Origin: Elusimicrobiota bacterium
Lineage (GTDB): Bacteria > Elusimicrobiota > Elusimicrobia > F11
NCBI GenBank assembly: GCA_022072025.1
Contig: JAJVIP010000007.1
Span: 62,001 to 126,000, forward strand
Length of the DNA stretch: 64,000 bases
Direction of reading: 5' to 3'
How positions within the stretch are numbered: position 1 is the stretch's first letter; the number at the start of each line of letters is the position of its first letter. Below, one piece after another: positions 23,458-49,827 of this stretch. The notes beneath the pieces were generated by a model. That model did no database searches. It saw nothing but the letters and a program-made list of their open reading frames with translations, and was not told the origin of the DNA. The position numbers were made by a program, and so were the translations under genes.

Positions 23458-24011
23458 GCGCCTTTCTGTTCCTCAATAATTAAATCGCATACAGACAACA
23501 GCCACACCAAATGGGTATTTTCTACGATGTTGTAGGACGTGCTGTCCACCCACAAGTTAATTTTTCCCAATGATTTCATGGGGTTTTGGCTGGAAAACCC
23601 GGTCACCGTCGCCAAACGAAACCCTTGTTTGGCGGCCCACTGGGACGCATGAACCATGTTGGGGGACTTTCCGCTTGAACTGATCAACACCACCACATCG
23701 CCCTTGTCCGCGTAAAATTCCAAGGCCTTTTGAACCCAGTTCTCATAGCCATAATCATTCGCAAAACAGGTGATCAAATCCGCTTCGTTGAAGTTGACGG
23801 CCCGAATACCAGCGGTTTTGGTGAAATCAACCGCGCAATGACTGGCCATGGCCGCGCTGCCGCCGTTACCGACAAAGATGGTTTTCTTTCCTGCCTTGTG
23901 AGCCTCGACAATCCAATTTTTCAGCTCAACCAAATCCTTATAGACAGAAACTTGAGGAATTGATTTCTGATATTGAGAGAAATAATTAGACAGCCATTCC
24001 TTCTCGTTCAT
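23454..24011 (-). CDS. SIS-domain phosphosugar isomerase (GmhA-like)
   Basis: 185-residue single SIS domain protein. GNGGSAAMASHCAVDFTK (48-65) binds the sugar phosphate; FANDYGYENW, LISSSGKSPN and ENTHLVWLLSVCDLI match the sedoheptulose-7-phosphate isomerase GmhA family, including the Glu and His residues used for catalysis. It may provide a heptose 7-phosphate, or act as a related ketose/aldose isomerase. Strong Shine-Dalgarno AAGGAG 7 nt before ATG 24011; overlaps the Gfo gene by 26 nt. In this locus a heptose role would fit the HddA-like kinase at 44354-45385 and the HAD domain at 37387-39747. Confidence 0.82.
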   Translation of the reverse strand: MNEKEWLSNYFSQYQKSIPQVSVYKDLVELKNWIVEAHKAGKKTIFVGNGGSAAMASHCAVDFTKTAGIRAVNFNEADLITCFANDYGYENWVQKALEFYADKGDVVVLISSSGKSPNMVHASQWAAKQGFRLATVTGFSSQNPMKSLGKINLWVDSTSYNIVENTHLVWLLSVCDLIIEEQKGA

Positions 24012-25015: not shown

Positions 25016-25819
25016 TCACCAAGCGGTCCATCCGCCGTCCACAGCGATATTTTGGCCTGTCACATAGGCCGACAAATCACTGGCCAAATAGGCCACCGCG
25101 CCTTTTAAATCCTCTTCTGTGGCCATTCGTCCCATCGGGGTTCGCGCAACATATTTTTCTCGAAAGGCCGGATGTTGATCACGCCACACACCCCCAGGAG
25201 AAATGGCATTAACTCGAATTTTCGGGGCCAAAAGCGTCGTCAGATAACGCATCAACTGAAGAAGTCCTCCCTTGGACGCCGCATAGCCGGCCGGGTTGTG
25301 CATGGGAGTCCCTTCATAAATTCGAAAATCTGGCCCCACCATTCCATAAATGGAGGAAAATAAAATGATCGATCCATGTCCCGATTGAGCCAGCGGCACC
25401 TGACATTCTTGGGCCAACACCAAGGCCGCCGTTAAATTTACCCGCAGAGCCGCGTCCCAAGCTCCAACTGTTTGTTCTGGGAAAGGGCGAGACCACCCCT
25501 CCAACTTGGTTTCTCCGACGAAGGCGGCGCAGTGAATCAAAATCTCCAAGCCGCCCATCTCCTGAACTATTTTTTTCGCCGCGCCGCGCGTGGAGGATTC
25601 ATCCTTGAGGTCACACTGAAATGCCAGGGCTGCTTCTTTTCGAGAGATGTTTAATCCATCAACCGTTTTTTTTGCCGCGTCCAAATTTTGATCGAGAATG
25701 GCAACTCGTCCTCCCAGTTCCACCAATCCCTCAGAGACGGCTCTTCCAATATGCCCCGCTCCACCAGTCACCAAGGCTCGACGCCCTGTTAGGTTCATGA
25801 GTTCTTTTAGATTTTTCAT
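25016..25819 (-). CDS. Short-chain dehydrogenase/reductase
   Basis: 267 residues from ATG 25819, which overlaps the cyclase-like gene stop as ATGA; an upstream in-frame start at 25861 would add 14 residues without support. Classical SDR: VTGGAGHIGRAVSEGL for NAD(P), LIHCAAFVG, FSSIYGMVG with the catalytic Ser, YAASKGG with Tyr and Lys, then AISPGGVWRDQHP and the end motif VDGGWTAW. It belongs to block D (SDR, cyclase, SDR, three Gfo, SIS, cytidylyltransferase-cupin). Substrate unknown. Confidence 0.85.
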   Translation of the reverse strand: MKNLKELMNLTGRRALVTGGAGHIGRAVSEGLVELGGRVAILDQNLDAAKKTVDGLNISRKEAALAFQCDLKDESSTRGAAKKIVQEMGGLEILIHCAAFVGETKLEGWSRPFPEQTVGAWDAALRVNLTAALVLAQECQVPLAQSGHGSIILFSSIYGMVGPDFRIYEGTPMHNPAGYAASKGGLLQLMRYLTTLLAPKIRVNAISPGGVWRDQHPAFREKYVARTPMGRMATEEDLKGAVAYLASDLSAYVTGQNIAVDGGWTAW

Positions 25820-26892
25820 GAAACTTTCACCCGCCCCAAATTTTCGAAAAATCTTTGGCACAAGGATTCCAACCGAGCATCGAGAGGCGCTTTATGGACA
25901 AACAGTCGCCCCGGGCCACTGAGCAATATCATGGAGATATCGGACCCCAAATTCTTTTTGTCTTTTTTCAAAGCCGCGAAAAACTTCTGTTCCGGAATGT
26001 CAACATGCTCAAACCCTTTGTAATTTGCGGCAATCACGGGGTGAAGTTCATCGAAATCCTTTTTATCCAGAAACCCCAACTCCACTGAAATGGTGTTGGC
26101 CAAATCCATCCCCAAGGTCACCGCGATTCCATGCGGAACTGCATATTCAGTGGCGCTCTCAATGGCATGTCCAAAAGTGTGTCCATAATTCATGACCAAA
26201 CGCTCATGACGATCAAATTCATCAATCTCAATTACCCTCTTTTTGATTTCGAGCGAGCGGCGAAGCGTTTTCATGAGAATATTTCGATCGGTGAGCAAAT
26301 AATCTGATTGTTCGGAAATTTTTCGAGCATCGTCCCAACTTGAGATGATGTGGACTTTGATCATTTCCCCAATGCCGGACCGAATTTCTCGTTCATTTAA
26401 TGTATCGAGCGCACAAGCTGGCACCACCACTTCGGAAGGAGGGGTGAAAGTACCCACCTGGTTTTTATAAGCCCCAATGTTGATGGAGGACTTGGACCCA
26501 ATACAGCTATCCGCTTGGGCCAAAAGAGTGGTGGGATAAAAGGTCCAGGCCACGCCTCTTAAAAGACAAGAAGCGATAAAAGCCCCGATGTCTTGAACAA
26601 TTCCGCCTCCCACAACGATGAGGCGATGGTCCCGATGGATTCCTTTATCCAAAAGGTGGGTGATGTAGGCGGGAATCTTCTCCAAGGATTTGTTTTGTTC
26701 AAGGGCCTCTATAATAAGGACAGAAGGCCCCGCGAGCGCTTTGCCCAAAGGTTCTTGAAACAATTTGGCAACACGCTCATCAATGATCAGATGATCCCTG
26801 CCAGACAAGCCGTTTTCCAATCCAGTAAAACCGGAGGAAAACCGAACCGTATAAGGTCCGCGGTGGGACTGGATGGTTAAATTCTCAAGCAC
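25816..26892 (-). CDS. 3-dehydroquinate-synthase-like sugar phosphate cyclase, divergent
   Basis: 358 residues from GTG 26892, preferred because GGAGG lies 8 nt upstream; ATG 26907 and TTG 26916 lack one. Fold of the AroB/sugar-phosphate-cyclase family: GGGIVQD (95-101), PTTLLAQADS, and metal ligands E176, H238 (YGHTFGH) and H254 (PHGIAV). Departures from biosynthetic 3-dehydroquinate synthase are GSKSSIN where GGKTGVN is usual and HGIAV where HGEAV is usual. No shikimate gene is near; all neighbours are sugar oxidoreductases and a GmhA-like isomerase, so it may cyclise another sugar phosphate, for instance a heptulose phosphate. That substrate is inference. Confidence 0.78.
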   Translation of the reverse strand: MLENLTIQSHRGPYTVRFSSGFTGLENGLSGRDHLIIDERVAKLFQEPLGKALAGPSVLIIEALEQNKSLEKIPAYITHLLDKGIHRDHRLIVVGGGIVQDIGAFIASCLLRGVAWTFYPTTLLAQADSCIGSKSSINIGAYKNQVGTFTPPSEVVVPACALDTLNEREIRSGIGEMIKVHIISSWDDARKISEQSDYLLTDRNILMKTLRRSLEIKKRVIEIDEFDRHERLVMNYGHTFGHAIESATEYAVPHGIAVTLGMDLANTISVELGFLDKKDFDELHPVIAANYKGFEHVDIPEQKFFAALKKDKKNLGSDISMILLSGPGRLFVHKAPLDARLESLCQRFFENLGRVKVS

Positions 26893-27586
26893 TCGTGAAG
26901 CCTCCATCGGCAACAATCATCTGACCTGTTATATAGGAATTATCGTTGCTTACCAAAAAGCCTGCCACTTTGGCTATTTCCTGCGCGGTTCCAAATCTTC
27001 TCATGGGAATCTGCCGGCTGATCTGCGCCATACCGGAGGCGCCCAAGACTCCTCGGGTCATATCGGTATCAATAAAACCGGGGGCCAAACAATTGACCAA
27101 AATATTGAGAGGGGCCACCTCCAAAGCCAGAGCGCGCGTCATTCCCAAAAGGCCAAATTTACTGGTGGAATAGGCCGATCTTCCCGGTTTGCTAACACTT
27201 CCAAAAATGGAGGCGATATTTAAAATTCGGCCATACTTTTTTTTCTTCATCAAAGGAATCACACTTTGACACAACAGGAATGGAGCGACGACATTGACGG
27301 CATGAACCCGTTCAAAATCGTTGAGCGTGTATTTTTCCAACTCCCCAATCTTATTGATGCCGGCGCTGTTGATGAGAATGTCAAAACCGGTTTTTTTAAT
27401 TTTTTTTGCCAATTGTTTGACTTGATCTCTTTTTGAGAGGTCACATCCCCAATAATCACTCCCGTGGGGCCCCGCACCTCTGGGTTTGCTTCCCACCACA
27501 GTGACCACCAGGCCATCCTGGCAGAGTTGGTCGGCAATGGCCCATCCAATGCCTCGGGTTCCGCCTGTTATCAATGCCTTTAACAT
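26885..27586 (-). CDS. FabG-like short-chain dehydrogenase
   Basis: 233-residue classical SDR with ITGGTRGIGWAIAD, GCDLSKRDQ, LINSAGIN, NIASIFGSVSK (catalytic Ser region), YSTSKFGLLGM (Tyr and Lys) and NCLAPGFIDTDM, ending MIVADGGF. It is complete and resembles 3-oxoacyl-ACP reductase, but its neighbours argue for a sugar or cyclitol substrate. It overlaps the Gfo/Idh stop by 7 nt upstream and the cyclase-like gene by 8 nt downstream, so it is tightly coupled with both. Confidence 0.85.
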   Translation of the reverse strand: MLKALITGGTRGIGWAIADQLCQDGLVVTVVGSKPRGAGPHGSDYWGCDLSKRDQVKQLAKKIKKTGFDILINSAGINKIGELEKYTLNDFERVHAVNVVAPFLLCQSVIPLMKKKKYGRILNIASIFGSVSKPGRSAYSTSKFGLLGMTRALALEVAPLNILVNCLAPGFIDTDMTRGVLGASGMAQISRQIPMRRFGTAQEIAKVAGFLVSNDNSYITGQMIVADGGFTSA

Positions 27587-28667: not shown

Positions 28668-29909
28668 TTAAACCGCTAGCAATATCTCGGAAATCAATGG
28701 AAGAGATGAATTGGTTGTAGCTTGACGAACAAATAATTCTTCCGACAATGGCTCTCCCCATTGAACCTTCTGAATGGCGTCCGAATATTCGCCAACCTCT
28801 GGTTCGCTATCATTAATCCTTTCAACCCCTTTCACACCAATGACAAAGGCCTTGTCGCAGCCGATGGTGGCTTCTGACAGAGCCCCACTGGGCGCTCCAA
28901 TCACCCCATTGAAGTCACAAACGATGTCCAGAACGGAATTTCGCTGTGCTTCCAATACAAACGCCTGCAACTTCCTTTTTCTTAATTCCTGGACAATTTG
29001 TTCGACATACGGCTTCGTTTCTCTCGGGTGCGGTCGAATGTGAATGGCCAAATTCGGATGATACGTGACCACTTGAGAAATAAAATCAACCCACCGATTT
29101 AATATGTCCCTTTCTGAATTGGTCTCGCTCACATAATAGCTCCACGGCCCGCCCAATATGACAAGAAGACCTTTTTTTTCTTTAACCTCTCCACAACGAC
29201 AATGCCCCATTCGTGGGTGATGGGCTAGAACAACCGGAACATGAGGGAATAAAACCTGAAGCGCTTCATAGGTTCTAGGCTCATAAACAACAATCTTGTC
29301 CACACGATCAGTGGCGAATAGAACCTTCCCTGATTTTTCATATGCATGCATAGGAAAAAAATGACCCGTTAATAATCCCGGGAAAAAATAATGATTGAGC
29401 GTTCGACGTACAACAGCTCTCCCGCGGTTTCTAAAACGGAGATAGAGAGGCAATTTGTTTTTATTAAATGAAAAAGGAGCGACTGTTTTTGTCGTATTCG
29501 TTTTCTGATATTCAACCAAAAGTTGTGTCGGTGTTTCTTTTTGCACAGCCATGACAGGCGCGTTCTGTCTTCTTGCGAGCCCAATCAAATAACGGTGCAT
29601 CGGCATAAAATCAACATCCACAATGAGAAGATCCATTTTCCCCTGCGACAAAGACCGCAACAACCGGCCCATGGCCAAATGGTGTCGAACAATATATTTC
29701 GAATCCGGCACCAATGAAAATCCCGAAAGAATACCTTTGTCCTCCAGAGTTTTCAGGGTGTTGGAAATCTCATATCCCTCTGGGTAATCCAACAAAATCA
29801 AAAAAGAAGTGAAATATTCCGATACTTGTTCAATCAGCGGCAGATAGGCCGAGCGGAATCCATATTTGTTCCCACAAACAAAAACCGCGCGTTTTTTTTT
29901 GGTATCCAC
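28668..29909 (-). CDS. Capsule-type glycosyltransferase, GT-B-like, putative
   Basis: 413 residues. The N-terminal domain starts KRAVFVCGNKYGFRSAYLPL. The C-terminal domain has a LVILGGPWSYYVSE strand-loop, then IHIRPHPRE, the basic-His-Pro motif seen in bacterial polysialyltransferases and CDP-glycerol transferases, and GAPSGALSEA, the Ser-rich loop that binds donor nucleotide phosphates. It is therefore likely to use a CMP- or NDP-activated sugar and may be the transferase for one of the acidic sugars. GTG 29909 start without good Shine-Dalgarno; 14 nt after the preceding stop. Assignment to a named GT family is not possible by eye. Confidence 0.62.
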   Translation of the reverse strand: MDTKKKRAVFVCGNKYGFRSAYLPLIEQVSEYFTSFLILLDYPEGYEISNTLKTLEDKGILSGFSLVPDSKYIVRHHLAMGRLLRSLSQGKMDLLIVDVDFMPMHRYLIGLARRQNAPVMAVQKETPTQLLVEYQKTNTTKTVAPFSFNKNKLPLYLRFRNRGRAVVRRTLNHYFFPGLLTGHFFPMHAYEKSGKVLFATDRVDKIVVYEPRTYEALQVLFPHVPVVLAHHPRMGHCRCGEVKEKKGLLVILGGPWSYYVSETNSERDILNRWVDFISQVVTYHPNLAIHIRPHPRETKPYVEQIVQELRKRKLQAFVLEAQRNSVLDIVCDFNGVIGAPSGALSEATIGCDKAFVIGVKGVERINDSEPEVGEYSDAIQKVQWGEPLSEELFVRQATTNSSLPLISEILLAV

Positions 29910-29923
29910 AAAATACGAGGGCG

Positions 29924-30928
29924 TTAATGAGAGGCCAGTGATTCAAGCGAGGGATAACGAACCCCAATCAATTGTTCGCAAAGGGACACATCTTTGCGAG
30001 CCTCTTCCAAGGTGGCCGCCACCGGAGACTTTTTACCATTCATGAAATCGACAAAAGCTGACGCTTGTTGGGTAAATCCGGGTTTTTCTTGAAGGTCAAT
30101 ATCCTCCAGAAGGATGCGCTCTTTCATTTTTGGCAAATAGCGGCGGATGGGGAATTCAGGCGTCGGATCAATCATTTCCATCCCTTCATAGACCGTCACC
30201 ATCTCAAAGGGTTTGAGCTCAAAGCGTCGTCCTGGCCGGTCCAGCGTTAATGAAAAGTTACCGGGAGCCCCCCAATTCCCCGTGAGCTGAATGAGATCGC
30301 CACGCTGAGAACACAAAACGGCGCTAAAACCAATAACTTCCTGTTTATTATTTTTGATTTGACTCGAACTGCGAACATCAACACCATCAAAAATAAAATT
30401 CAACATATCAATGCCGTGACAACTGTTCTCAAAGAAGGGATAGAGATAGGATCTATTTTTATCATCCCAATTGATTCCCTCGGGCAAATTCATTTGCGCC
30501 ACCAAGGGTTCGCCACTTTGAACAAAACTTTTGCACGCCTGAACGGTTCGGTAAAACCGTCTGTTATACGCGACCATAATTTGACCCTTTTTCAAAATCA
30601 AAGGATCAATGAGGTCTGGATGGAAAGAAACGGGTTTTTCGACCAAGGCAGGCAATTGGCGATTTAATACTTCCGATAAAACAGCGGCCGTCCCATCCAC
30701 ATGCGTCGCGACGAGAACTCCGTCAATATCCGCTTTATCCAGCAATTCCTGCCAGGAAGAATATATGTGGGGAATGGTATGTTTTTTGGCAAAGGGCTCA
30801 ACCCGAGCGGATCCGGGCCGAGAAGCAACAGAAGTGACATCACAGCCAATTTTTCGAAAAGCACGCAAATGCCAATCAGATATGCCCCCGACGCCGATGA
30901 TGCCGATTTTCTTTACGATATGGGCCAT
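29924..30928 (-). CDS. Gfo/Idh/MocA oxidoreductase
   Basis: 334 residues from ATG 30928; the 40 extra residues of the longer frame (to 31048) are arginine- and cysteine-rich, overlap the preceding gene and are not credible. KIGIIGVGGISDWHLRAF binds the cofactor; VEKPVSF carries the lysine; YNRRFYRTVQ, WDDKNRSYLYPFFENSCHGIDML form the substrate side. Weak AAGAA before the start, 16-nt overlap with the upstream Gfo gene. The Asn-Ser-Cys-His-Gly-Ile-Asp stretch corresponds to the GGG-H-D catalytic region of relatives, with His-Asp kept. Substrate unknown. Confidence 0.78.
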   Translation of the reverse strand: MAHIVKKIGIIGVGGISDWHLRAFRKIGCDVTSVASRPGSARVEPFAKKHTIPHIYSSWQELLDKADIDGVLVATHVDGTAAVLSEVLNRQLPALVEKPVSFHPDLIDPLILKKGQIMVAYNRRFYRTVQACKSFVQSGEPLVAQMNLPEGINWDDKNRSYLYPFFENSCHGIDMLNFIFDGVDVRSSSQIKNNKQEVIGFSAVLCSQRGDLIQLTGNWGAPGNFSLTLDRPGRRFELKPFEMVTVYEGMEMIDPTPEFPIRRYLPKMKERILLEDIDLQEKPGFTQQASAFVDFMNGKKSPVAATLEEARKDVSLCEQLIGVRYPSLESLASH

Positions 30929-31953
30929 ATTTCTTTTCCCACGTCGCTGTTGGGGTCCAAAGGCAAGGAGATGGACTTTTTCTCTCGCGCGCTCACAAGC
31001 GCTCCCACAACCGAAGACACCGCCGCAAACCCTACTTCGCCCGGACAATCACGGGGCCCTGTTTTAAAGGTATCGAGAACCGCATTTTTCATCCTCTGCT
31101 CGAAGGGAATCACGCCAGGCAAAACACCTTGAAAAATAATCTCAGAAGCGGGGCCGGTGCGGGTGATGGCCGGAAATTGCTTGACCATCGCCTTATCTCG
31201 GACGCGAATCACGGCCCCCAAATCAATATCCATTTCCAGAAGCGTGTCTCGAAAAAACACCCGGAGGGCAAGCCAGAGGCTGGACCTGTTACTGAAACTA
31301 ATAACGGCCTCCCGCCCATCCGGGAACGTCCAAATCGCTGTTCCGCCAAACATCTGCAAATCGGGAGAACGGGGATTGATGGCGGCTCCCTGCGCTGTAC
31401 TCAAAACTGAGACGGGGGATGCGCCGTACAATTCAGAGACGAAATCGATGCAATGAAGGCCATTGGTGGCCAAGCAAGTCGCGCCGCCGTCCACCGTGAC
31501 GGACACAGGATCCCCCAAGCCCATTTTATTTGCGAATTCATAGAGAGCAGGCACCACTTTTGAAAACCGCATAAAGTGATTGACAGAAAGAGTCACATTT
31601 TTTTCCTGCGCCAGTTGAACCATCCGATGCGCCGCCGCGACTGAAGAGGCCATTGGCTTTTCACAAAGGACTCGCTGAACTCCTCGCTCCACAAGCTTTT
31701 CAAAAAAATCGGCATGAGAAGGTCCCCAAGAAGCGATCACCGGAACGCTTTGCGCCCAGATCAGTCCACTTTTGTCGGCTTCTTCCAAGCTGGACAACAC
31801 ACGCGCTTGAGGAAAATCTATCTGGGCTTGTTTGCGCGCCGCCTCTTTCGTGTCGATAATGGTGAGAGAAGCGGTCTCCCCCGCCAAGGATTTGGCATGA
31901 CGACGGCCAATAGAACCGTAGCCGATGAGAACGCCGGCCGTCTTAACGGCCAA
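30913..31953 (-). CDS. Gfo/Idh/MocA oxidoreductase
   Basis: About 346 residues if it starts at TTG 31953, just before VLIGYGSIGRRHAKSL; the longer frame to 32058 adds residues overlapping the aminotransferase gene and unlike the family. CEKPMAS has the family lysine; VNHFMRFSKVVPAL and GGATCLATNGLHCIDF carry the candidate catalytic His-Asp. TTG has no Shine-Dalgarno but overlaps the upstream aminotransferase end by 11 nt, favouring coupled translation. It belongs with the aminotransferase 31943-33142, since 3-keto formation by a Gfo enzyme followed by transamination is a common pair (WlbA/WlbE-type logic). Confidence 0.76.
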   Translation of the reverse strand: MAVKTAGVLIGYGSIGRRHAKSLAGETASLTIIDTKEAARKQAQIDFPQARVLSSLEEADKSGLIWAQSVPVIASWGPSHADFFEKLVERGVQRVLCEKPMASSVAAAHRMVQLAQEKNVTLSVNHFMRFSKVVPALYEFANKMGLGDPVSVTVDGGATCLATNGLHCIDFVSELYGASPVSVLSTAQGAAINPRSPDLQMFGGTAIWTFPDGREAVISFSNRSSLWLALRVFFRDTLLEMDIDLGAVIRVRDKAMVKQFPAITRTGPASEIIFQGVLPGVIPFEQRMKNAVLDTFKTGPRDCPGEVGFAAVSSVVGALVSAREKKSISLPLDPNSDVGKEIWPIS

Positions 31954-33142
31954 AGTATTCGATTGTTTTTGCAAGTGCTTCCGCCTTTTGCTCCGCCACC
32001 CCCAAATCCATATAGTTGGTTTTGAATTGAAGCAAAGCAGGTTGAATGGATTCTGCAATGGGACAGAGTCCCGCCGTGAACATCTGGTCGCGGAGTTTTT
32101 GGCCTTTTAACACCGGTTCCAAATAGTTGATCTTCCAACAAGCGTAAATTCCGTCTCCACCGAGATCCTTATATTTCTTCCTAAAACCGTACCAATCGAC
32201 CGACGCGTTGGGATGCATCTTGAGCACATAGGTCCACCAGGAATGAACCGTGTCTTGTGGAACTTGTTGAGGAACCAGCCACTGACAGCCACCCCAGGCT
32301 TTTTCGAAAAGGGCCGCCACGGCTTGACGCTGATGAACAAATTCCTGAATTCGTTCCGTTTGAGCCAAGGCCACCGCGGCCGTTACCTCTGACATGCGGT
32401 AATTCCACCCCACCATCACATGCCGTTCATATTTTGGATCTTGAATGGTTTCACGAGTGACTTTGCCCCGACCCGAGGTGGCGCCAATGGAAGCATATCC
32501 CAACGTTCCAAACCGCCTGGCTTGAATGGCCAGTTCTTCATCATCGGTGATAAGAACTCCGCCCTCGCCCGAAGTCAAATGTTTGGACAACTGAAAGCTG
32601 TAGCTGGCCATATGGCCCCATTTTCCCACCACACGCCCTTTATATTTCCCCAAGAAACATTGCGCATTGTCTTCAATCACTTTGAGTCCCCGTTCAGCGG
32701 CGATTTTCATGATGGCTTCCATGTCAGGGGACAACCCAAAAATAGAAACCGGCATGATGGCTTTGGTTCTGGAGGTGACACATTTCAAAATAGACTGCGG
32801 ATCAAGCGTGAATGTTTTGGGATCCACATCGGCATAAACCGGAATGGCTCCGCATTGGAGAACCGCGAAGGTGGTGCTCATCATGGTCAATGGGGGAACA
32901 ATTACTTCAGAACCTGGAGTGACACCGCAAGCGATGAGCGCCGAATGCAAGGTGGCCGTTCCATTCACCTGGGAAATGGCGAACTTGGCGCCAAACGCCT
33001 CGGCAAATCTTTCTTCAAACCGGCGAATCATGCCGCCCGAAAGGCTGTTCCGAAATTGGGTATCCAAAACTTCCATCACATATTTTTTTTCCAGGTCCGT
33101 TACACGATCTATTTTTTGGGTCATGGATTGGGTGTTTAACAT
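31943..33142 (-). CDS. DegT/DnrJ/EryC1/StrS aminotransferase
   Basis: 399-residue PLP sugar aminotransferase with the Schiff-base lysine K187 in FQLSKHLTSGEGG. VNGTATLHSALIACGV, PPLTMMSTTFAVLQCGAIPVYAD and VIEDNAQC (Asp contacting the pyridine N) are intact. ATG 33142 has GGAG 6 nt upstream and overlaps the spsF-like gene by 7 nt. With the NeuB fusion and SpsF-like protein the set is reminiscent of the Bacillus spore-coat operon (SpsC aminotransferase, SpsE synthase, SpsF cytidylyltransferase), so it may aminate the precursor of a second nonulosonate. Alternatively it aminates the keto sugar made by the adjacent Gfo enzyme. Confidence 0.88.
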   Translation of the reverse strand: MLNTQSMTQKIDRVTDLEKKYVMEVLDTQFRNSLSGGMIRRFEERFAEAFGAKFAISQVNGTATLHSALIACGVTPGSEVIVPPLTMMSTTFAVLQCGAIPVYADVDPKTFTLDPQSILKCVTSRTKAIMPVSIFGLSPDMEAIMKIAAERGLKVIEDNAQCFLGKYKGRVVGKWGHMASYSFQLSKHLTSGEGGVLITDDEELAIQARRFGTLGYASIGATSGRGKVTRETIQDPKYERHVMVGWNYRMSEVTAAVALAQTERIQEFVHQRQAVAALFEKAWGGCQWLVPQQVPQDTVHSWWTYVLKMHPNASVDWYGFRKKYKDLGGDGIYACWKINYLEPVLKGQKLRDQMFTAGLCPIAESIQPALLQFKTNYMDLGVAEQKAEALAKTIEYFGR

Positions 33143-33915
33143 GGTTGCTCCGCTTTTACCGACTTGTGGTATCCCTCATAACGAATCGTCCCAGAATTGA
33201 TCAGCGCCAACTGGGGCTCCAGAGAGAGAACGTCCAAAATATCCTGCATCAAAAAAATTTTCTTCTTTTTATAAAGGCGTCGGTAAATTTCCCTCGTAAA
33301 AGCCATGTCGTTTTCATAATCAATGGTCCAACGGTGTTTGGATAGGTCAACAGGGTGATAGAACCCTTGTTTTTTAAATTCCGAACCATGGTTGAATAAA
33401 TAGGGCGTGACATGTTCTCTTTCTGAAGAACGTTTGGCGTTTTTCCAGAGGCGCTCAAGGCAGTTGAATGTCATGACTTCAATATCGATGCCTTCTGGGA
33501 AGGTGGACTTGATGCTCCCGTCGTAACTGCAGTTGGACACATAATCCAAATGGGGTTGGCCTGATTTGAGAAGAGCGACCGCTTGATCGATGACAGCGGG
33601 ATCCTTAAAAGGATCGTCCGGTGTGATGCGAACAACAATATCTGTCCGATGTTTTAAGGCCGCCTGATAAAAACGGTCCAAAACATCGTTTTCAGAGCCT
33701 TGTGTCACCAACACCCCAATTTGGTTTAAATAGGCCACAAGCGGGGCGTCTGAATGATTCGATGTGGTGGCCACGACTATGTCATCAATGGAGGAAGCGG
33801 CTCGAACACGTTCAAGGACATGCCAGATCAGAGGCTGCCCCTCGATATCCATCAAAATTTTTCCGGGGAGGCGGGTGGATCCCAATCTCGCTTGAACGAA
33901 TGCCGTGGTTTTCAT
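33136..33915 (-). CDS. spsF: SpsF-like cytidylyltransferase
   Basis: 259-residue protein starting TTAFVQARLGSTRLPGKILMD, the nucleotide-binding loop typical of SpsF/GlpF-type cytidylyltransferases. VVATTSNHSDAPLVAYL, RITPDDPFKDP and PEGIDIEVMTFNCLERLW match the family, which activates nonulosonate-like acids with CTP in spore coat and other glycan loci. ATG 33915 overlaps the Rossmann gene by ATGA. It is probably the activating enzyme for the acid made by the NeuB domain of 35006-37390. It is the third cytidylyltransferase of the window. Confidence 0.85.
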   Translation of the reverse strand: MKTTAFVQARLGSTRLPGKILMDIEGQPLIWHVLERVRAASSIDDIVVATTSNHSDAPLVAYLNQIGVLVTQGSENDVLDRFYQAALKHRTDIVVRITPDDPFKDPAVIDQAVALLKSGQPHLDYVSNCSYDGSIKSTFPEGIDIEVMTFNCLERLWKNAKRSSEREHVTPYLFNHGSEFKKQGFYHPVDLSKHRWTIDYENDMAFTREIYRRLYKKKKIFLMQDILDVLSLEPQLALINSGTIRYEGYHKSVKAEQPC

Positions 33916-35006
33916 GAAGGTAACGGAGCCTCTTGTTTCTTTTCATCAATCGCTTGCTGAAGAGTGCGCAGTTTCACTTCTTGATCGGGAGTCAAGCGGC
34001 GGACAAAATCTCCCAGTCCATTGGCAATTCCAAAAATAACCTGGGGATTGTGCACATTGTCGACCACCACCTCCCCCTCCCATCCCAGCAATCCCCCTGA
34101 AACCAAAGGAACGCCCTGCCATTCTCGCCGCCCCACGGTATGATTGAGGAGGCGTTCCATCTCCAATAGAGTGGCAACCATCCCTTCAAACCCCGCACGA
34201 ATATCCACGCGTAAAATTCGAAAATTCCTTTCTCTTGCCACCGTGATGGCCTCAGGAGAAATACAGCCTTTCCCAGCATCAAGAATCAACGCCTTGTCAT
34301 GTAAATGTTGGACCATCGTTTTGGTGATCACCGGCAATCCTTCTGTCATTCCGATTAATACATCGGCTTCAATCGCCGCCTTCTCATTGTCCGTCAGGCC
34401 CGTGACTTGGGCCACCGTGAAAGGCGGTTTAACAATATTGAGTGTCTGAACAAGAGTTTCTAATTTCTTTTTGTCCCGGCGAGTGATGACCACTTGAGCG
34501 CCGCGCTCCACTTCTTTCAAAGCCAATTTAAAACCCAAATTCCCCGCGCCCAGGATCACCACTTTTTTTCCACCCATACCCCGGATGGGGTCTTGTATGG
34601 ATTGATTCAACAAAGCGTCAATCGATTCCACCGTTAAATCGTTTCCTTTGTATGTGAGAACCCGAGACCGCTTGGCGGCATCCCGTACAGCGCGTTCAAT
34701 GTTTCCTTTGTCATCTATTCCGTAGACCGAAACATCAGGCCGCACTTTCTTTTCCGTGTCGACCAACAAATAATTCACCCGCCCATCCACCAGTCGCGCA
34801 ATGGCTTCGGCATGATGCGCTTCATAAACGATGACGCTTCCCGCCACAAGTTTCGTCGTGTTGCGAATGGGGGTAAAGAAAAAACCATGTGAATCCACTT
34901 TCGTGGTGTTCCCAATACAAAAACCACTGAGTTTATTTTCCTGGCGGGCGATGGCCAGTACTCGTTCAAGAATATTTTCCAATTGGTCACGATGAGCAAT
35001 ATTCAT
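33912..35006 (-). CDS. Rossmann-fold NAD(P)-binding protein, role unknown
   Basis: 364 residues from ATG 35006, which makes TAATG with the preceding stop and has GGGAGGA 8 nt upstream; the in-frame GTG at 35021 overlaps that Shine-Dalgarno and is unlikely. VVILGAGNLGFKLALKEVERGAQVVITRRDKKK is a classical dinucleotide-binding motif starting near residue 148, resembling shikimate or alanine dehydrogenase/glutamyl-tRNA reductase domains. The first 145 residues form an unassigned domain (FCIGNTTKVDSHGFFFTPIRNTT). Near the C-terminus VDNVHNPQVIFGIANGLGD is distinctive. I do not recognise a family. Coupling to the NeuB fusion and SpsF suggests an enzyme of the same sugar. Confidence 0.6.
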   Translation of the reverse strand: MNIAHRDQLENILERVLAIARQENKLSGFCIGNTTKVDSHGFFFTPIRNTTKLVAGSVIVYEAHHAEAIARLVDGRVNYLLVDTEKKVRPDVSVYGIDDKGNIERAVRDAAKRSRVLTYKGNDLTVESIDALLNQSIQDPIRGMGGKKVVILGAGNLGFKLALKEVERGAQVVITRRDKKKLETLVQTLNIVKPPFTVAQVTGLTDNEKAAIEADVLIGMTEGLPVITKTMVQHLHDKALILDAGKGCISPEAITVARERNFRILRVDIRAGFEGMVATLLEMERLLNHTVGRREWQGVPLVSGGLLGWEGEVVVDNVHNPQVIFGIANGLGDFVRRLTPDQEVKLRTLQQAIDEKKQEAPLPS

Positions 35007-37390
35007 TAAATATCCTCCCACGTGATGGGGAAATCCGCTTCGATGGCGTGACGCGCTGGTCGCCCCGCCACAATGTCCAAATAGACTGGTTGAAGCCCCC
35101 CACCAGGCCCCTTGATGGCAATCGCGTCCCTTTCAATGATTTGTCCTTTGGCAATGGGGACTTTCGCATAGAGACTTTTTCGTTGAGCATTGATGGTGTC
35201 ATACTCGTTGGGTTGAATCCGTTTTACTCCGTCTCCGAGAATTTGGTTGATCTGTCCCGCTGTTCGGACCAAAACTTTCATCTCTTCAGGCTCGGAAGAA
35301 AAGACATGGTCAGGCCCTTCGAGCATTCGATCCAAAGTGAAATGTCGCTCGATGGCATTGGCTCCGATGGCCATCGCCAACTGAGACACCGTAACCCCCA
35401 ACGTGTGATCGGAAAAACCAACAGGAACGCGAAAAGATTTCTTGAGTGTTTCGATGACACGCAAATTCATGCTCTCCGGGGCGGCGGGGTAAGAAGACAC
35501 ACAATGAAGCAGAATGACATTGGCGTTCCCTTCCGATTTGACCGCTTCAAGCGCTTCTTCAATTTGACCGATGGTGGACATGCCTGTCGATAAGATGAGA
35601 GGTTTTTTTGTGGAAGCCACTTTTTTAAGGAGGGGAATATTGACCAAATCAAAAGAAGCCAATTTATAAAACGGGGTCCCCACCGATTCCAGCAACTCAA
35701 CGCTGCCTTCATCGAAGGGAGTAGAAAAAATCAATATCCCTTTGTTCTTCGCGTAATCAAATAAATGGACATGGTCTTCTTTTTTTAACTCGTGGCGCTG
35801 AAACATCTCAAGCAATGTTTCCTCTGTTCCAATGACAGTCTCCGCATATTTCATCTTTTTGACTTTTCCAGAGATGCGGTTGGCGCTCTGATAGGTTTGA
35901 AATTTAACCGCATCCACCCCGGCCTCAACCGCTTTGTCAATGAGTCGCAAGGCCATCTCCAAACTTCCGTTGTGGTTCAGGCCTGCTTCCGCGATGATGA
36001 ACGGTTTATGCCCATCTCCCACGGCCCGCCCCGCCAACTCCACCACTTCGTTTAGTTTGGTCACGTTTTGTTTACGCTTGACCTGGGAAAAATCGGAATA
36101 TTGATTGGTCAGAATATCCACCAAATCAAACGCCTTTTGAAAAAGAATTTGACTGTCCGCATAACTGAATTCCCCAGTGGTTCCAATGGTATAGAGTTGA
36201 TTGTACTCTCCCAACCGGCTTTGAGCGTTGGCCAAATCATGCTGATAATCTTTGCGAAGAAGCGGGTACACCGCCGATTGGCGATGGATGGAGGTGGCCA
36301 AAATTTCTTCTTTTTTGGCGAGACCCGTTTTCAAAAAATCATTCAAAGCCCGATCCACAAGCGCCTGATCACTTTGTCGGTCCAGTTCGTCATCTTTGCT
36401 GTAAGCAATTTCCAGCGTTACGCAGGTTTTACCTGGCACTGCTGTGTCACGAGAGAGTTTCTTTTGTTCGCTGATTCGGTTGAAAATAAGTTCGGGGGCG
36501 TCATAGTAAAGCCAATGTAATTTATCAGGAATCGCATATTCTTTGTTGATGGCGATAAACACCGAAATAATGCCACGGAAGGTCAAAGGGCATGCAAAAC
36601 CCAATAACTGAGACATCACATTAATGGGAATTGTTGAAATCACAACATCTTGAGTGCCAACGGAAAGATTGCGCCCGTTTTTTAGTTTGAGTTCTAAAAT
36701 TTCATGACCTTTCGTGGTCACACCCACCACGGGTTCGGACAAATGGATTTTCCCACCCAGCTTTACGATCCGTTTTTGAATTTCATCATAAACACAACCC
36801 GTCCCGAATTTACCCGCCGCGTTCCATTGACCATGATAAAAAGCCGTGTCTTTTTGCCGCAGTTCCACACGTTTGGGCGCCCAGAGCGGCGTCATTTCAT
36901 CGGTTGAAAGACCCCACACTTTTTTTGGGTAACGCTCAAAAAACATCTCTTGCAAGGTGGGCCCCACCAAAGCCCGAATGTATTCTTTATAACTCCGCGC
37001 TTTGGTTCGGTCGAGCGCGTTGGCTTGTTCGAGTTCCGTGATCACGCGACGCGCCACTTCTTTGGGGTATTTGGCGATGCTCTCGTATGAAAGCGGATAA
37101 GGATAGTATTCGTCAAAGTTTTTACCTTTCACGTTGCAACAACGGTAATCATCTTTGACGAACAAATCCCCAAACTCACTCTCCCAAAATTCTGCCATTT
37201 GGGGGTCCGGCGTGTGAAAAAGGTGGGGACCCACATCCACCAGAAAATCCCCCCACCGCCAAGTGCGGGACATACCGGCGATGAAAGGTTCTTTTTCAAA
37301 GATTTCAACCTCCCAACCCCGTTCGAGCAATTTCCAGGCTGTCACCAATCCGCTGACGCCCGCGCCAAGAATATAGGCTTTTCGTTTCAT
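35006..37390 (-). CDS. FAD-dependent oxidase/mutase-like domain fused to NeuB-family synthase
   Basis: 794 residues in two enzymes. Residues 1-435 are an FAD protein of the amine-oxidase/UDP-galactopyranose-mutase-like superfamily: LGAGVSGLVTAWKL (8-21), EKEPFIAGMSRTW, VGPHLFHTPD and YPKKVWGLSTDEMTPLWAPKR. Residues 446-794 are a complete NeuB-type synthase: FIIAEAGLNHNGSL (464-477), AVKFQTY, FSTPFD, LSTGMSTIGQI, LLHCVSSYPAAPE, GFSDHTLG, ERHFTLD, and a SAF domain from about 735. ATG 37390 overlaps the HAD-ABC stop as ATGA. The linker contains no start or stop, so it is one polypeptide. It likely modifies a sugar by oxidation or ring isomerisation and condenses it with PEP, or tethers two enzymes of one pathway. 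Confidence 0.85.
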   Translation of the reverse strand: MKRKAYILGAGVSGLVTAWKLLERGWEVEIFEKEPFIAGMSRTWRWGDFLVDVGPHLFHTPDPQMAEFWESEFGDLFVKDDYRCCNVKGKNFDEYYPYPLSYESIAKYPKEVARRVITELEQANALDRTKARSYKEYIRALVGPTLQEMFFERYPKKVWGLSTDEMTPLWAPKRVELRQKDTAFYHGQWNAAGKFGTGCVYDEIQKRIVKLGGKIHLSEPVVGVTTKGHEILELKLKNGRNLSVGTQDVVISTIPINVMSQLLGFACPLTFRGIISVFIAINKEYAIPDKLHWLYYDAPELIFNRISEQKKLSRDTAVPGKTCVTLEIAYSKDDELDRQSDQALVDRALNDFLKTGLAKKEEILATSIHRQSAVYPLLRKDYQHDLANAQSRLGEYNQLYTIGTTGEFSYADSQILFQKAFDLVDILTNQYSDFSQVKRKQNVTKLNEVVELAGRAVGDGHKPFIIAEAGLNHNGSLEMALRLIDKAVEAGVDAVKFQTYQSANRISGKVKKMKYAETVIGTEETLLEMFQRHELKKEDHVHLFDYAKNKGILIFSTPFDEGSVELLESVGTPFYKLASFDLVNIPLLKKVASTKKPLILSTGMSTIGQIEEALEAVKSEGNANVILLHCVSSYPAAPESMNLRVIETLKKSFRVPVGFSDHTLGVTVSQLAMAIGANAIERHFTLDRMLEGPDHVFSSEPEEMKVLVRTAGQINQILGDGVKRIQPNEYDTINAQRKSLYAKVPIAKGQIIERDAIAIKGPGGGLQPVYLDIVAGRPARHAIEADFPITWEDI

Positions 37391-39747
37391 AGCGCGCTCT
37401 CTTTGGGAGTTACCATAGATTCCTCATCATCTCCCAAATACAGACGGGCATAGGAGCTTTTGGCGGACATAAGCGAATCATGAGTGCCCTGTTCAACCAC
37501 CACTCCTTTTTCAATAAAAACAATATTGTCGACATCCTTGATGGTGCTCAAGCGATGTGCGATCACCAAAATAATCGCATCTTTTCTCAGAATATCGATG
37601 GCTTTATAGACCGCCTTTTCAGTTAAGTTGTCCAAAGCGCTGGTGGCTTCATCGAAAATTAATACTTGTGGTTTTCTTAAGATTGCTCTGGCCAAAGCCA
37701 CTCGTTGGTTTTGCCCGCCCGACAACCGGAGACCTCGGTCCCCCACCATGGTATCGTAACCTTCGGGAAGAGTTAGAACGAAATCATGTAATTGCGCCAA
37801 TTTGGCCGCGTTAATAATATCTTCTTCTTTCACATCTGGTTTCCAGAGAGCAATATTTTCCTTAAGAGTGGTGTTAAAAAGAAATACATCTTGGCTAACA
37901 TACCCAATATGATTCCGCCAAGAAGTAAGAAGAAGGTTTTGAAAATTTATGTCATTAATTTTTATGGCTCCGGACCTGGGTTCATAAAGTCCTATGAGCA
38001 AATTGGCAATGGTGCTTTTGCCGGATCCTGAAGGGCCCACCAACGCCGTAATTGAATTCACTTTAAAAGATAAATTAACACCCTTGAGGACCATCGTGTC
38101 GGGTTTGGTGTCATAATAAAATGAAACATCTTCAAACCGGATTTCTTCAATTCGAGGCGGGGCTTCCTGCCCGCCCCTTCGTTCTAGGATTGTCCGCTTT
38201 TTCAGTTGTTCCAAGATCTCCAACCCCCGGCGCCATTTATTCAAATCGACACTGGCAGAGGATATACTCGACAAAGCAGGATTCGCCTTTCGTAAGGAGA
38301 AAAAAATACCAACCAAGGTGGCAAAGGTCATGTTTGGGGCCGGCCATATAAAGGTAAAAACACCCAAGACGGCAATCAGAATAAAAGCCAGGGCTTCGTT
38401 ACCCACCATGGGTGAATTTCGGAAAAAAATCATTTGAATCATTGGCTTCTTTTCATTTTCAAGAAATACCCGATGTTTGGCCACCATTGTCGATTCCAAC
38501 GCATTGGATTTGACCACACGAATTCCATCGAGCGCATCCACTTCAAGGTGTGACTGATGGCGTTTTGCTTCGTAAAGGTCGAACCCGCAAGCCGCAGTTA
38601 ATTTCGGCAAATACTGTTTCCAAATAAGCATACTCAACACACCCATGGCCGCAATTATTAAAGTGGCCCACCAAGACAAATAGGCCATGACAGCAATCAT
38701 GGCAACACAGTTCACCACTCCCGTCGATATGGTACCCAATTGCATGAAAGCACCCCAAATCGATTCTGCGGGTTGCGTAATATCCGAAATGGCGACGCCG
38801 CGACTCTTTTTCGAAAAAATTTCATAGTGAGTGCGCAACGAATTCTCAAAAAGTTGGGATTTTGTAATCCGATATAATCCATGACCCATCCTGCCAAGAA
38901 AATATTGTTGAAGCATCAAGATGCCGCTTCTCATGAAAAAAAGGAAACACGCCAATAAAAGCAGCAAAAAAATAACTCGTCCAGAATTAACACCCAGCCC
39001 CAAATTGGACATTGCCAACATCACCCATTGACTGAGCAGGTTCGAGCTGGACCCGCTTGGGTTCGAGACCACATCCGCCAAAGGTACCATCACCCCCACC
39101 GTTAGAATATCGAAGAGGGCCCCCACCAAAGTTATCGCGAGCATGGCCATCATTTTCCATCGATAGGGAGAAATCACAACACGCCAGTACAAGGAGGCGC
39201 GCTCTATTTGGTCTGCCAATTTAAGGGAGAAACTTTTTCCTTTTCGGACAATCTCTTTTTGAACGATTTCCCGAAGCGGGTTTTGTTCTGTCACGATAAA
39301 TGTGGGACAACCAACTGCGCGACCCGCCACCAGGTCTCTTTCATCGCATCCTATGAACGCGGTTGAAGAAAAATCAAGATTGAAATCAGCTTTGGCACGA
39401 AGAAAAAGACCCGATTTTGGCTTTCGACAGTCGCATCCCGACTCGAGCGAATGAGAACAAACATAAAAAGCGTCAATTCGTCCTCCCAATCGGAAAAGAT
39501 CCATTTGCAATCGGTCATGTATCTTCTGAAGATCCGCCTCAGTGAGCTGACCACTTGCCAGCCCCTCTTGGGTGGTAACGACAATCACTTTGTATCCAGA
39601 CTTGCCAAGTTGGGCGATCGCCTCAGCTGATCCCGGTATCCAGTGAAAATCTTCCGGGGATAAAACATATCGACTGAGCGTGGATTTGTAATTGATAACT
39701 CCATCACGCTCTAAAAAAACGGCACGGATTGGACGAGAGGAAGTCAT
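37387..39747 (-). CDS. HAD (GmhB-like) domain fused to ABC exporter
   Basis: 786 residues. Residues 1-155 are a HAD-IIIA domain like heptose-bisphosphate phosphatase GmhB/HisB: FLERDGVINY, zinc ligands C97, H99, C105, C107 (CSHS, GCDCRKP) and IGCDERD. The nucleophilic Asp of motif I is Glu (E13) and motif II reads TTQEGL instead of NQSGI, so phosphatase activity is doubtful. Residues about 195-480 hold the membrane segments of an exporter; 535-770 are the nucleotide-binding domain with GPSGSGKST (571-579), LSGGQ (675-679), VLIFDEATSALD (695-706) and an H-loop His in IAHRLST. Likely a lipid-linked glycan flippase (PglK/MsbA type). ATG 39747, ATGA overlap with the reductase gene. Confidence 0.85.
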   Translation of the reverse strand: MTSSRPIRAVFLERDGVINYKSTLSRYVLSPEDFHWIPGSAEAIAQLGKSGYKVIVVTTQEGLASGQLTEADLQKIHDRLQMDLFRLGGRIDAFYVCSHSLESGCDCRKPKSGLFLRAKADFNLDFSSTAFIGCDERDLVAGRAVGCPTFIVTEQNPLREIVQKEIVRKGKSFSLKLADQIERASLYWRVVISPYRWKMMAMLAITLVGALFDILTVGVMVPLADVVSNPSGSSSNLLSQWVMLAMSNLGLGVNSGRVIFLLLLLACFLFFMRSGILMLQQYFLGRMGHGLYRITKSQLFENSLRTHYEIFSKKSRGVAISDITQPAESIWGAFMQLGTISTGVVNCVAMIAVMAYLSWWATLIIAAMGVLSMLIWKQYLPKLTAACGFDLYEAKRHQSHLEVDALDGIRVVKSNALESTMVAKHRVFLENEKKPMIQMIFFRNSPMVGNEALAFILIAVLGVFTFIWPAPNMTFATLVGIFFSLRKANPALSSISSASVDLNKWRRGLEILEQLKKRTILERRGGQEAPPRIEEIRFEDVSFYYDTKPDTMVLKGVNLSFKVNSITALVGPSGSGKSTIANLLIGLYEPRSGAIKINDINFQNLLLTSWRNHIGYVSQDVFLFNTTLKENIALWKPDVKEEDIINAAKLAQLHDFVLTLPEGYDTMVGDRGLRLSGGQNQRVALARAILRKPQVLIFDEATSALDNLTEKAVYKAIDILRKDAIILVIAHRLSTIKDVDNIVFIEKGVVVEQGTHDSLMSAKSSYARLYLGDDEESMVTPKESAL

Positions 39748-47737: not shown

Positions 47738-48781
47738 TTAAAATGGCCCACGAAATTCGATTAATTCCTGGGCGTTGTTGTCAACGGGAGTCCACGAATG
47801 GTTTGGACGAACCAATGTGTTGGCTGCCGTCGCGATGGTTCGAGAATTGGGATAGAAACAATCTTCGAGGACTTTGGTGGTTGGACAGGTCACTGGGGCG
47901 AAACCCATTCGCTGAACTTTGACATGTCGATCGTCTCGCATCATTTCAAGGCAATGGGCCACAATTTCCGAACCGGCCCCACACGTTACCCAACCGTTAT
48001 CAACAACAAGAAGATGCCCTGTTTTTTTCACCGATTTCACGATCGTTCCCATATCGAGTGGACTTAAGGAGATGGGATCGATGATTTCAGCGCTCAGACC
48101 CGCCTCAGCCAAAATTTTCTGAGCGCGAATACATTCGTAGACCATGTTCGAAATCCCCACAATTGTCACGTCAGACCCTTCCATCAATACGCGAGCTCGC
48201 CCGAAAGGAACGGTATAACTGCCTTCAGGAACGGGTCCTTTATGGAAATGCAGCATTCGGTGTTCAATAAAAAGAACCGGATTATTATCTCGAATACTTT
48301 CAATGAGACAGCCCTTGGCGTCATAGGGCGTCGATGGAGCAACGACTTTTATGCCAGGAACATGCATGAAATAGGAGTGAAATGCCTGGGAGTGTTGGGG
48401 CCCCTGTCCCCAGCTTTTTCCGATCATGGCCCGGACAACCATGGGAACGTTTACGGACCCCCCATACATATACCGAAGCTTGGCAGCCATGTTCACCAAC
48501 TGGTTCATGGCCAAAAGAACAAAATCCATGCGAATATGCACATGAATGGGACGCAGGCCTGCGAGCGCCATTCCAATCGCGACTCCGGTCATGCCATCTT
48601 CGGCCAATGGCGTGTCAAAACAGCGATCAACCCCAAATTTTTCCACAAGGCCTGTGGTTGTTCCTTGAATGCCTTTCGCGTCATCCACGCCCAATCCAAA
48701 GACAAGGACAGATGGATCACGTTGCATCTCTATTTCAGTGGCTTCGCGAACGGCTTCGGTATATAAAAGTGTTCGTTCCAT
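47738..48781 (-). CDS. ThDP-dependent 2-oxo acid dehydrogenase E1 beta-like subunit
   Basis: 347-residue protein with the transketolase pyrimidine-binding fold: MERTLLYTEAVREATEIEM, PLAEDGMTGVAIGMALAGLRP carrying the Glu that activates thiamine diphosphate, VVRAMIGKSWGQGPQHSQAF, VPFGRARVLMEG and the transketolase C-terminal domain with GFAPVTCPTTKVLE. Its partner alpha gene follows directly upstream with no gap (AAGGAA Shine-Dalgarno). There is no E2 or E3 subunit near, so it is not a normal pyruvate dehydrogenase. In a 3,6-dideoxysugar context it may help add a two-carbon unit to a keto sugar. Confidence 0.88.
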   Translation of the reverse strand: MERTLLYTEAVREATEIEMQRDPSVLVFGLGVDDAKGIQGTTTGLVEKFGVDRCFDTPLAEDGMTGVAIGMALAGLRPIHVHIRMDFVLLAMNQLVNMAAKLRYMYGGSVNVPMVVRAMIGKSWGQGPQHSQAFHSYFMHVPGIKVVAPSTPYDAKGCLIESIRDNNPVLFIEHRMLHFHKGPVPEGSYTVPFGRARVLMEGSDVTIVGISNMVYECIRAQKILAEAGLSAEIIDPISLSPLDMGTIVKSVKKTGHLLVVDNGWVTCGAGSEIVAHCLEMMRDDRHVKVQRMGFAPVTCPTTKVLEDCFYPNSRTIATAANTLVRPNHSWTPVDNNAQELIEFRGPF

Positions 48782-49723
48782 TTATGATTCCTTAAAAACA
48801 TCAACGTAAAGATCTTCGTAAATTGGGAAAGGACTTTTCTCCGCGAAATCAATGGCTTTTGCGATCTCTTGCTCCACTTCCTTCTCAATTTGCGACTTGG
48901 TGGCACCCTCCAAACGTTTCCCCAAAGCAACCATCTCGTCATTCTTAATCCATTCATCACATTCTTCCTTGGACCGATATCCAAGAGAAAAATCAAAACC
49001 CGGCCCCACATGTTCTCGCCACCGATAAGTCATGCATTCCAAGAAAATCGGCCCCGATTTCCCTGTTCGCATGGCGGGAAGGATTTCTTTAACAGCCTCA
49101 TAAATTTTGAAGGTATTGTTGTTGTCGATTCTCTGTGCTGGAACGCCATAGCTCTCAGCTCGCTCGCAAAGATTGTTCCTCAATTGACGGGTTTTCTGGT
49201 GGGAATGAATGGCATAAAAATTGTTTTCACATACAAAGATAACGGGGAGTTTTTTCAGAGCTGCGAAGTTAATACTTTCATGGAACGCCCCTTCATCCAC
49301 GGCGCCATCTCCAAAGAACACAGCCACAACCGTCGTTTTCTTTTGTTGGCGCTGGGCATAGGCATATCCCACCGCCACAGGGATGGTCGTCCCAACCACG
49401 GCGGAGGTCCCCATCATATGGGCGCCCACATCCACCAAATGCATGGATCCGCCTTTCCCGCGGGCGCAACCCGTGACCTTGCCATACAATTCGGCGATCA
49501 TTTGGTTCAGGTTCCCCCCCTTTGCCAAATAAAGGGCATGACCCCGATAAGTGCCGAATACGGCGTCATCAGGTTGTAAAGCTTCACATACACCAACGGA
49601 AACGGCTTCCTGCCCAATCGAAAGATGGACGGGACTTTTGATTTTATCCGAAGGATAGAGTCGCACCAACTCCTCCTCCACGCGGCGAATGCGATAGATC
49701 GACTTGTAAAACCGCTCAATCAT
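48782..49723 (-). CDS. ThDP-dependent 2-oxo acid dehydrogenase E1 alpha-like subunit
   Basis: 313 residues from ATG 49723, chosen for its GAGG-containing Shine-Dalgarno; GTG 49756 has none. The ThDP-magnesium motif is GDGAVDEGAFHESINFAAL, ending at the ENN motif in VIFVCENNFYAIH (about 138-170). SPVHLSIGQEAVSVGV, RGHALYLAKGGNLNQMIAELYG, CARGKGGSMHL and VGTTIPVAVGYAYA are all typical of E1 alpha. First gene after the 340-bp gap, so it opens block B. With the beta subunit it should form an alpha2beta2 E1-like enzyme that generates an acyl carbanion from a 2-oxo acid such as pyruvate. Confidence 0.88.
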   Translation of the reverse strand: MIERFYKSIYRIRRVEEELVRLYPSDKIKSPVHLSIGQEAVSVGVCEALQPDDAVFGTYRGHALYLAKGGNLNQMIAELYGKVTGCARGKGGSMHLVDVGAHMMGTSAVVGTTIPVAVGYAYAQRQQKKTTVVAVFFGDGAVDEGAFHESINFAALKKLPVIFVCENNFYAIHSHQKTRQLRNNLCERAESYGVPAQRIDNNNTFKIYEAVKEILPAMRTGKSGPIFLECMTYRWREHVGPGFDFSLGYRSKEECDEWIKNDEMVALGKRLEGATKSQIEKEVEQEIAKAIDFAEKSPFPIYEDLYVDVFKES

Positions 49724-49827
49724 CTCAAACCTCGCATCGATTGATTCAGCTTGCACCGACTGTTAATCATTAAATTGCTATTCATAGCGCAGCCCCGCCG
49801 CAACCCAACAAGGGATCAAGCATGACC

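Follow-up and report, generated by a model that had tools for sequence, protein, structure and literature searches.

To our knowledge, the characterized nonulosonate pathways all feed their NeuB-type synthases 2-acylamino sugars, which come from hydrolases of the NeuC or PseG type. The gene described here lies in a 64,000-nucleotide stretch (contig 7, positions 62001–126000; hereafter the window) of the 3.64 Mb draft genome of an Elusimicrobiota bacterium. It encodes a NeuB-type synthase with a SAF domain, joined in one frame behind a flavin adenine dinucleotide (FAD) domain that resembles UDP (uridine diphosphate)-galactopyranose mutase (UGM). If the function proposed below is true, such a fusion would represent another supply route to NeuB-type synthases and a new class of sugar acids on bacterial surfaces, and its presence in several distant phyla points to an undescribed way to an unusual surface sugar. 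With two predicted activities and one diagnostic residue in a single protein, it also offers a handle for finding the product.

Among described synthases, NeuB/NnaB (TIGR03569; structures 1xuu, 4ipi and 4ipj) shares with the fusion protein the barrel, the SAF domain and the catalytic and metal-binding residues. The fusion differs from it in the additional N-terminal FAD domain, in its score (383.5 bits against an equivalog cut-off of 399.65), in having Gly in place of Arg314, in a basic loop carrying R505 and K511, and in forming a monophyletic branch of its own. Of the solved structures, PseI (TIGR03586; 8h2c) matches the NeuB half best by both profile and fold, yet here, too, the score is below the cut-off (316.6 versus 340.25 bits), and PseI has RPSFGL where the fusions have GPGGGL. 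With both cut-offs missed and Arg314 lost, a canonical sialic or pseudaminic acid synthase was rejected as an identification. SpsE (1vli), a NeuB homologue of similar length that also has a SAF domain, lacks the FAD domain and still has Arg (lRPG) at position 314. On the flavin side, UGM (2bi7, 4dsg; E. coli Glf) has the FAD fold and most substrate-contact residues in common with the fusion, which is set apart by its attached NeuB, by scores below the GLF and TIGR00031 cut-offs and by replacement of R343 and N270. In NCBIfam the FAD half matches the PRK07208 group (NF005547) best, at 188.5 bits under a cut-off of 380. The nearest unfused relatives of this half are single-domain flavoproteins of 420–490 residues and about 25–28% identity; unlike the fusion, the unfused PRK07208-like proteins usually do without H59, R178, Y185 and D412.

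Frame, distribution and origin of the fusion

An earlier reading of the window, made from the sequence only, had placed the gene correctly at 35006–37390, leaving unstated that it sits on the minus strand. There the frame runs for 794 codons with zero internal stops; the plus-strand frame at 35006 has many. Pfam recovers all three of the domains that this reading had seen in one uninterrupted frame: NeuB (PF03102) at residues 483–723 (E = 2.7e-91; 305.8 against 22.1 bits) and SAF at 738–794 (E = 4.8e-6; 27.5 against 21 bits) are above their cut-offs, and Amino_oxidase matches residues 12–352 at the superfamily level only (E = 8e-21; 75.3 against 19.8 bits), with NAD_binding_8 also matched. The limits proposed earlier (about 1–435 and 446–794) hold, the FAD domain extending from residue 1 to about 430 and NeuB plus SAF from about 447 to 794. 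The layout was also rightly taken to be uncharacterized: none of the curated equivalog cut-offs is reached, and no description of a FAD–NeuB architecture was found in the open-licence literature. The start of the gene overlaps the upstream stop as ATGA and its stop overlaps the downstream start as TAATG, an arrangement like that of a translationally coupled operon.

A frame error or missing stop that merges two adjacent genes has nothing to recommend it but the odd layout and the draft state of the source genome. The gene is not an assembly error, because the same FAD domain recurs elsewhere as a full-length NeuB fusion; ten further fusions of the same architecture and length, found in other genomes, exclude the artefact, whose probability is negligible. 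The possibility that homologues are always separate genes, named earlier as a potential refutation, is likewise contradicted, since the homologues are fusions. The 11 non-redundant full-length fusions, the window's included, have 791–804 residues, and the others are 43–64% identical to that of the window; their carriers are Elusimicrobia, Nitrospiraceae, Omnitrophota, Zetaproteobacteria and Magnetococcales. Among 341 genomes of the phylum, the sole other carrier is Elusimicrobia bacterium UBA9639 (G203), with an 814-codon frame, the same fusion and a FAD domain 48% identical. Public genome contigs were scanned with the FAD half alone; a single-protein query found nothing, and a two-sequence alignment returned six loci (FAD identity 48–60%), all six of them full-length NeuB fusions of 794–797 residues. 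All patterns were derived from the FAD half, so the presence of NeuB was not selected for. These loci belong to two Nitrospiraceae (63–64% overall), one Omnitrophota, one Zetaproteobacteria and one Magnetococcales member (about 54–55%), and G203. Four more (G520, G616, G702 and G896) came from sampling the phyla to which the Nitrospiraceae and Omnitrophota carriers belong; with about 44% overall identity, G616 and G896 are the furthest removed. Below the fusions, scan scores fall to single-domain proteins of about 420–490 residues and roughly 21–28% identity, and neither the contig scan nor the genome samples yielded a member of the FAD clade that is unfused. The fusion is rare (2/341, 3/346, 3/384 and 1/78 genomes in four samples), and in viral contigs, phages and plasmids it was not found, the matches there being distant flavoproteins or separate NeuBs. 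The long open frames that surround NeuB in loci L010, L015 and L016 of relatives were rejected as different from the FAD–NeuB fusion. L016 holds another fusion (L016:1519–3420, 633 residues), in which NeuB–SAF is joined to a xylose-isomerase-like TIM barrel (AP_endonuc_2) and the Arg314 position is Ser.

Trees built separately for the two domains show the fused NeuB domains as monophyletic (100/99) and the fused FAD domains likewise (99/96), and the inner branching of the two trees is equal save for the placement of L065/L067 and L120/L121. The protein arose by one fusion. The window's copy clusters with those of Nitrospiraceae and not with that of G203, the second carrier from Elusimicrobia, a grouping that points to spread between phyla by transfer. 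Purifying selection acts on both halves. For the pair of Nitrospiraceae copies, Nei–Gojobori estimates of nonsynonymous (dN) and synonymous (dS) divergence are about 0.056 and 0.68 for the FAD half (dN/dS about 0.08) and about 0.051 and 0.72 for the NeuB half (dN/dS about 0.07); the ratio is likewise low for two copies from the Omnitrophota phylum.

The two halves might nonetheless serve different steps or products, with the fusion helping only to express them together or to assemble oligomers; the FAD half might also be structural or regulatory. The direct hand-over of a product that the earlier reading suggested is conjectural, and genome G024 has a NeuB without a FAD domain together with a protein like the one encoded directly downstream of the fusion, a putative NAD(P) (nicotinamide adenine dinucleotide or its phosphate)-dependent enzyme referred to below as the partner protein. 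On the other hand, catalytic residues are kept in both halves, both are under strong purifying selection, and against eleven fusions there is not a single split pair, which makes such a division of roles improbable. The fusion is very probably a bifunctional enzyme of a ulosonate pathway.

The acceptor site of the NeuB half

All 11 fusions have equivalents of the NeuB catalytic and metal-binding residues E25, Q55, K129, S213, H215, E234 and H236. The Arg314 position of the SAF domain, by contrast, is Gly in every one of them; canonical unfused NeuBs have Arg in 21 of 23 cases and Ser in two. The assignment is unambiguous, because the Ala and Lys of the R314A and R314K mutant structures (4ipi, 4ipj) align with that Gly, in the motif IKGPGGG. 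Arg314 is the sole SAF residue to contribute directly to the active site, where it positions N-acetylmannosamine (ManNAc); in the meningococcal enzyme R314A is inactive and R314K active (PMC6795526). The fusions also have in common R505, S507 and K511, at positions in the equivalent of the Asn74 loop that are mostly occupied by other residues in unfused enzymes.

The loss of Arg314 suggests that the acceptor of the NeuB half is probably not a ManNAc-type sugar, and a predicted change of the acceptor site is the best-supported statement on this half of the protein. The acceptor may lack a 2-acylamino group and be perhaps negatively charged. Together with the new basic loop (R505, K511), the missing Arg lends independent support to the 'unusual nonulosonate' that had been suggested for the fusion.

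The flavin half and the proposed chain

By profile alignment, the solved structures closest to the FAD half are UGMs. Foldseek agrees, using an AlphaFold model of modest quality (predicted local distance difference test, pLDDT, 64) that served for fold class only, and the UGM-like label given earlier to this half holds up. The ligand contacts of KpUGM (Table 3 in PMC3624792) largely recur: F152, Y155, W160 and R174 correspond to F151, Y154, W159 and R174 of the window's protein, and Y185, R280, Y314 and Y349 to its Y185, R305, Y375 and Y410, each being kept in 10–11 of 11 fusions. The same holds for the His-loop residues P55 and H56, the His-loop histidine H60 of KpUGM being kept in 10 of 11, and D412 (KpUGM D351) is present in all. 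Catalysis by UGM proceeds through a flavin-N5 adduct and an open-chain iminium stage with zero net redox (PMC7662398; PMC3624792). Since the substrate-contact residues are kept, non-redox chemistry on a nucleotide sugar appears likelier than oxidase chemistry, and we moderately favour UGM-type chemistry for the FAD half. The sequence-only reading had envisaged a flavoenzyme that prepares an oxidised or ring-altered sugar; the kept substrate-binding residues fit the ring-altered sugar better and the oxidised one less. An amine oxidase in the strict sense is not favoured, since the residues of the UGM sugar site are retained.

A redox function would have the flavin domain, as an oxidase or dehydrogenase, oxidise a hexose before condensation, the keto product being reduced or aminated by the partner protein and an aminotransferase. 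Keto-sugars are common substrates of DegT aminotransferases and Gfo/Idh enzymes, genes for both of which are found in the operon, and the Pfam match above the cut-off is to Amino_oxidase, not GLF. However, the residues that bind the UDP-diphosphate and the sugar in the non-redox UGM are kept in nearly all fusions and the nearest solved relatives are UGMs rather than oxidases, so that we regard a redox function as doubtful.

The chain that we propose would lead from a nucleotide sugar to a surface glycan. The FAD half would bind the nucleotide sugar in the UGM manner, N5 of the reduced flavin would attack C1 of the sugar, and the ring would open; from this intermediate the mutase outcome could follow, or the sugar could be freed when water attacks the iminium. 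The NeuB half would condense the resulting sugar, which, given the loss of Arg314, would not be of the 2-acetamido-mannose type, with phosphoenolpyruvate (PEP) to give a 2-keto-3-deoxy sugar acid. The partner protein would perform an NAD(P)-dependent change on this acid, and the cytidylyltransferase of the operon would form a cytidine monophosphate (CMP)-sugar destined for the surface glycan. The pathway is probably atypical and CMP-activated, and it is reasonably likely that the FAD step comes before the NeuB step; the chain as a whole is tentative and falls somewhat short of an even chance.

In one form of this proposal the flavin half would replace NeuC or PseG, its N5 adduct opening the nucleotide sugar and freeing an open-chain aldose for PEP, and the product would be a ulosonic acid without a 5-acylamino group; we consider this unlikely. 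NeuC-type epimerases score above the cut-off in G000, G341, G342, G345, G346 and G520. In the draft genomes G343 and G344, searches for NeuC and PseG gave nothing above the cut-off, and a canonical unfused NeuB was not found, the only other NeuB of canonical barrel length being of the distant NeuB2 type. The flavin domain might instead act after NeuB, as a pyranose-to-furanose mutase on the CMP-ulosonate, which would be possible if a free C5 hydroxyl replaces the acylamino group. The cytidylyltransferase in the operon would suit this order, and so would the lost Arg314 equivalent, which suggests an acceptor without a 2-acylamino group. Yet R174 and R280 of UGM bind a diphosphate whereas CMP-sugars carry a single phosphate, attack by N5 at a quaternary anomeric carbon would presumably be chemically harder, and the cytidylyltransferase step would fall between the two fused activities; a mutase acting after NeuB is, in our view, quite unlikely.

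Several observations weigh against our preferred course, in which a UGM-type flavin step supplies an active synthase. The uracil contact N270 of KpUGM is Tyr in the fusions, and R343, which contacts the FAD pyrophosphate, is Thr, Ala, Gly or Ser in all of them, as against Arg in 40 of 40 unfused relatives. The equivalent of N84 is not alignable with confidence, its placement depending on the alignment. Pfam GLF remains sub-threshold (19.6 against 26.3 bits), and TIGR00031 is below its cut-off (31.4 against 303.75 bits). The AlphaFold model is weak, as its pLDDT indicates, and the absence of NeuC and PseG from G343 and G344 rests on draft genomes that may be incomplete. Losing an essential Arg could mean that NeuB activity is lost, although the remaining active site and the purifying selection argue against inactivity. 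Finally, G024 has a weak homologue of the partner protein (about 31%) near an unfused NeuB, with no FAD gene detected there. Partner-type proteins therefore do not depend on the flavin step and may accompany some NeuBs as general partners.

The operon and other glycan genes

The partner gene lies directly downstream of the fusion in 9 of 11 cases, the exceptions being L066 and L120. Its copies in the closer set are 50–64% identical to that of the window, and among 341 and 346 genomes strong matches occur only alongside the fusion. The protein has a Rossmann core, and its predicted model (pLDDT 81) resembles generic NAD(P)-dehydrogenase folds with template modelling (TM) scores of about 0.3–0.4 and a loose likeness to dipicolinate synthase A. 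The divergent homologue in G024 stands in a row (L135:6661–10114) with two LmbE-like deacetylases and the unfused NeuB, which keeps Arg (RRPGYG) at 314.

Most loci have a cytidylyltransferase gene close to the fusion. That of L065, L122 and L123 also encodes a second, distant NeuB, joined to the cytidylyltransferase in one protein; in the two Nitrospiraceae genomes the same NeuB–cytidylyltransferase gene lies away from the FAD–NeuB fusion, with an Asn-synthase-like neighbour. These proteins have 585–595 residues (L065:13500–15260, L122:12327–14114, L123:2828–4585, L124:6884–8656 and L126:6010–7779); three genomes encode theirs next to the FAD–NeuB fusion and two more at another place. Where their NeuB was aligned, the Arg314 position is either Lys or empty. 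In the coupled upstream gene of the window (786 residues), a GmhB-like part, with its best stretch at about 8–163, precedes an MsbA/PglK-like ABC exporter. L064, L120 and L123 have ABC exporters close to the fusion that, at 596–609 residues, are too short for a HAD domain and are without one.

Table 1. Position of the fusion gene, its domains and its neighbours in the window.
Feature	Coordinates	Strand	Basis or remarks
Fusion gene (UGM-like FAD domain, NeuB and SAF; 794 residues)	35006..37390	-	Open frame, Pfam, alignment
FAD domain, residues 1–430	36101..37390	-	GxGxxG 9–14, GPHLFHT 54–60, R174, Y185, R305, Y375, Y410, D412
Linker, residues about 431–446	36053..36100	-	Fusion alignment; approximate limits
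NeuB barrel, residues about 447–725	35216..36052	-	E468, Q498, K576, H662, H683 kept; fusion-specific R505, K511
SAF (antifreeze-like) domain, residues 738–794	35009..35179	-	Pfam
Gly761 codon, at the Arg314 position of meningococcal NeuB	35108..35110	-	Gly in 11/11 fusions
Partner gene, two-domain NAD(P)-binding protein	33912..35006	-	ATG overlaps stop of fusion gene (TAATG); alternative GTG start 35021
Cytidylyltransferase (CTP_transf_3), gene after partner gene	33136..33915	-	Homologue beside fusion or fused to second NeuB in most relatives
DegT-type pyridoxal phosphate (PLP) aminotransferase	31943..33142	-	Same order in G203
Gfo/Idh/MocA oxidoreductase	30913..32058	-
Gfo/Idh/MocA oxidoreductase	29924..31048	-
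Protein of unknown family	28668..29909	-	Weak homologues near fusion or its module elsewhere; possibly glycosyltransferase
Upstream coupled gene, HAD phosphatase (GmhB-like) fused to ABC exporter	37387..39747	-

Further glycan genes are found elsewhere in the window, on the minus strand where a strand is marked. A second nonulosonate cluster (5048–25861, minus) contains a canonical NeuB (14839–15879) and a NeuC (13688–14842), and many of its genes have homologues about 43–62% identical in the Nitrospiraceae cluster L125. A gene at 22282–23457 (minus) encodes a cytidylyltransferase domain with a C-terminal cupin (391 residues; L125 homologue 62% identical). An AroB-related putative sugar phosphate phospholyase (25816–26916, minus; TIGR04425, 446.6 against 400 bits) lies in a glycan cluster, with a SIS-domain gene (23454–24011) nearby. 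In a sugar cluster, genes for a two-subunit E1/transketolase-like thiamine enzyme (47738–49756, minus) adjoin a DegT aminotransferase.

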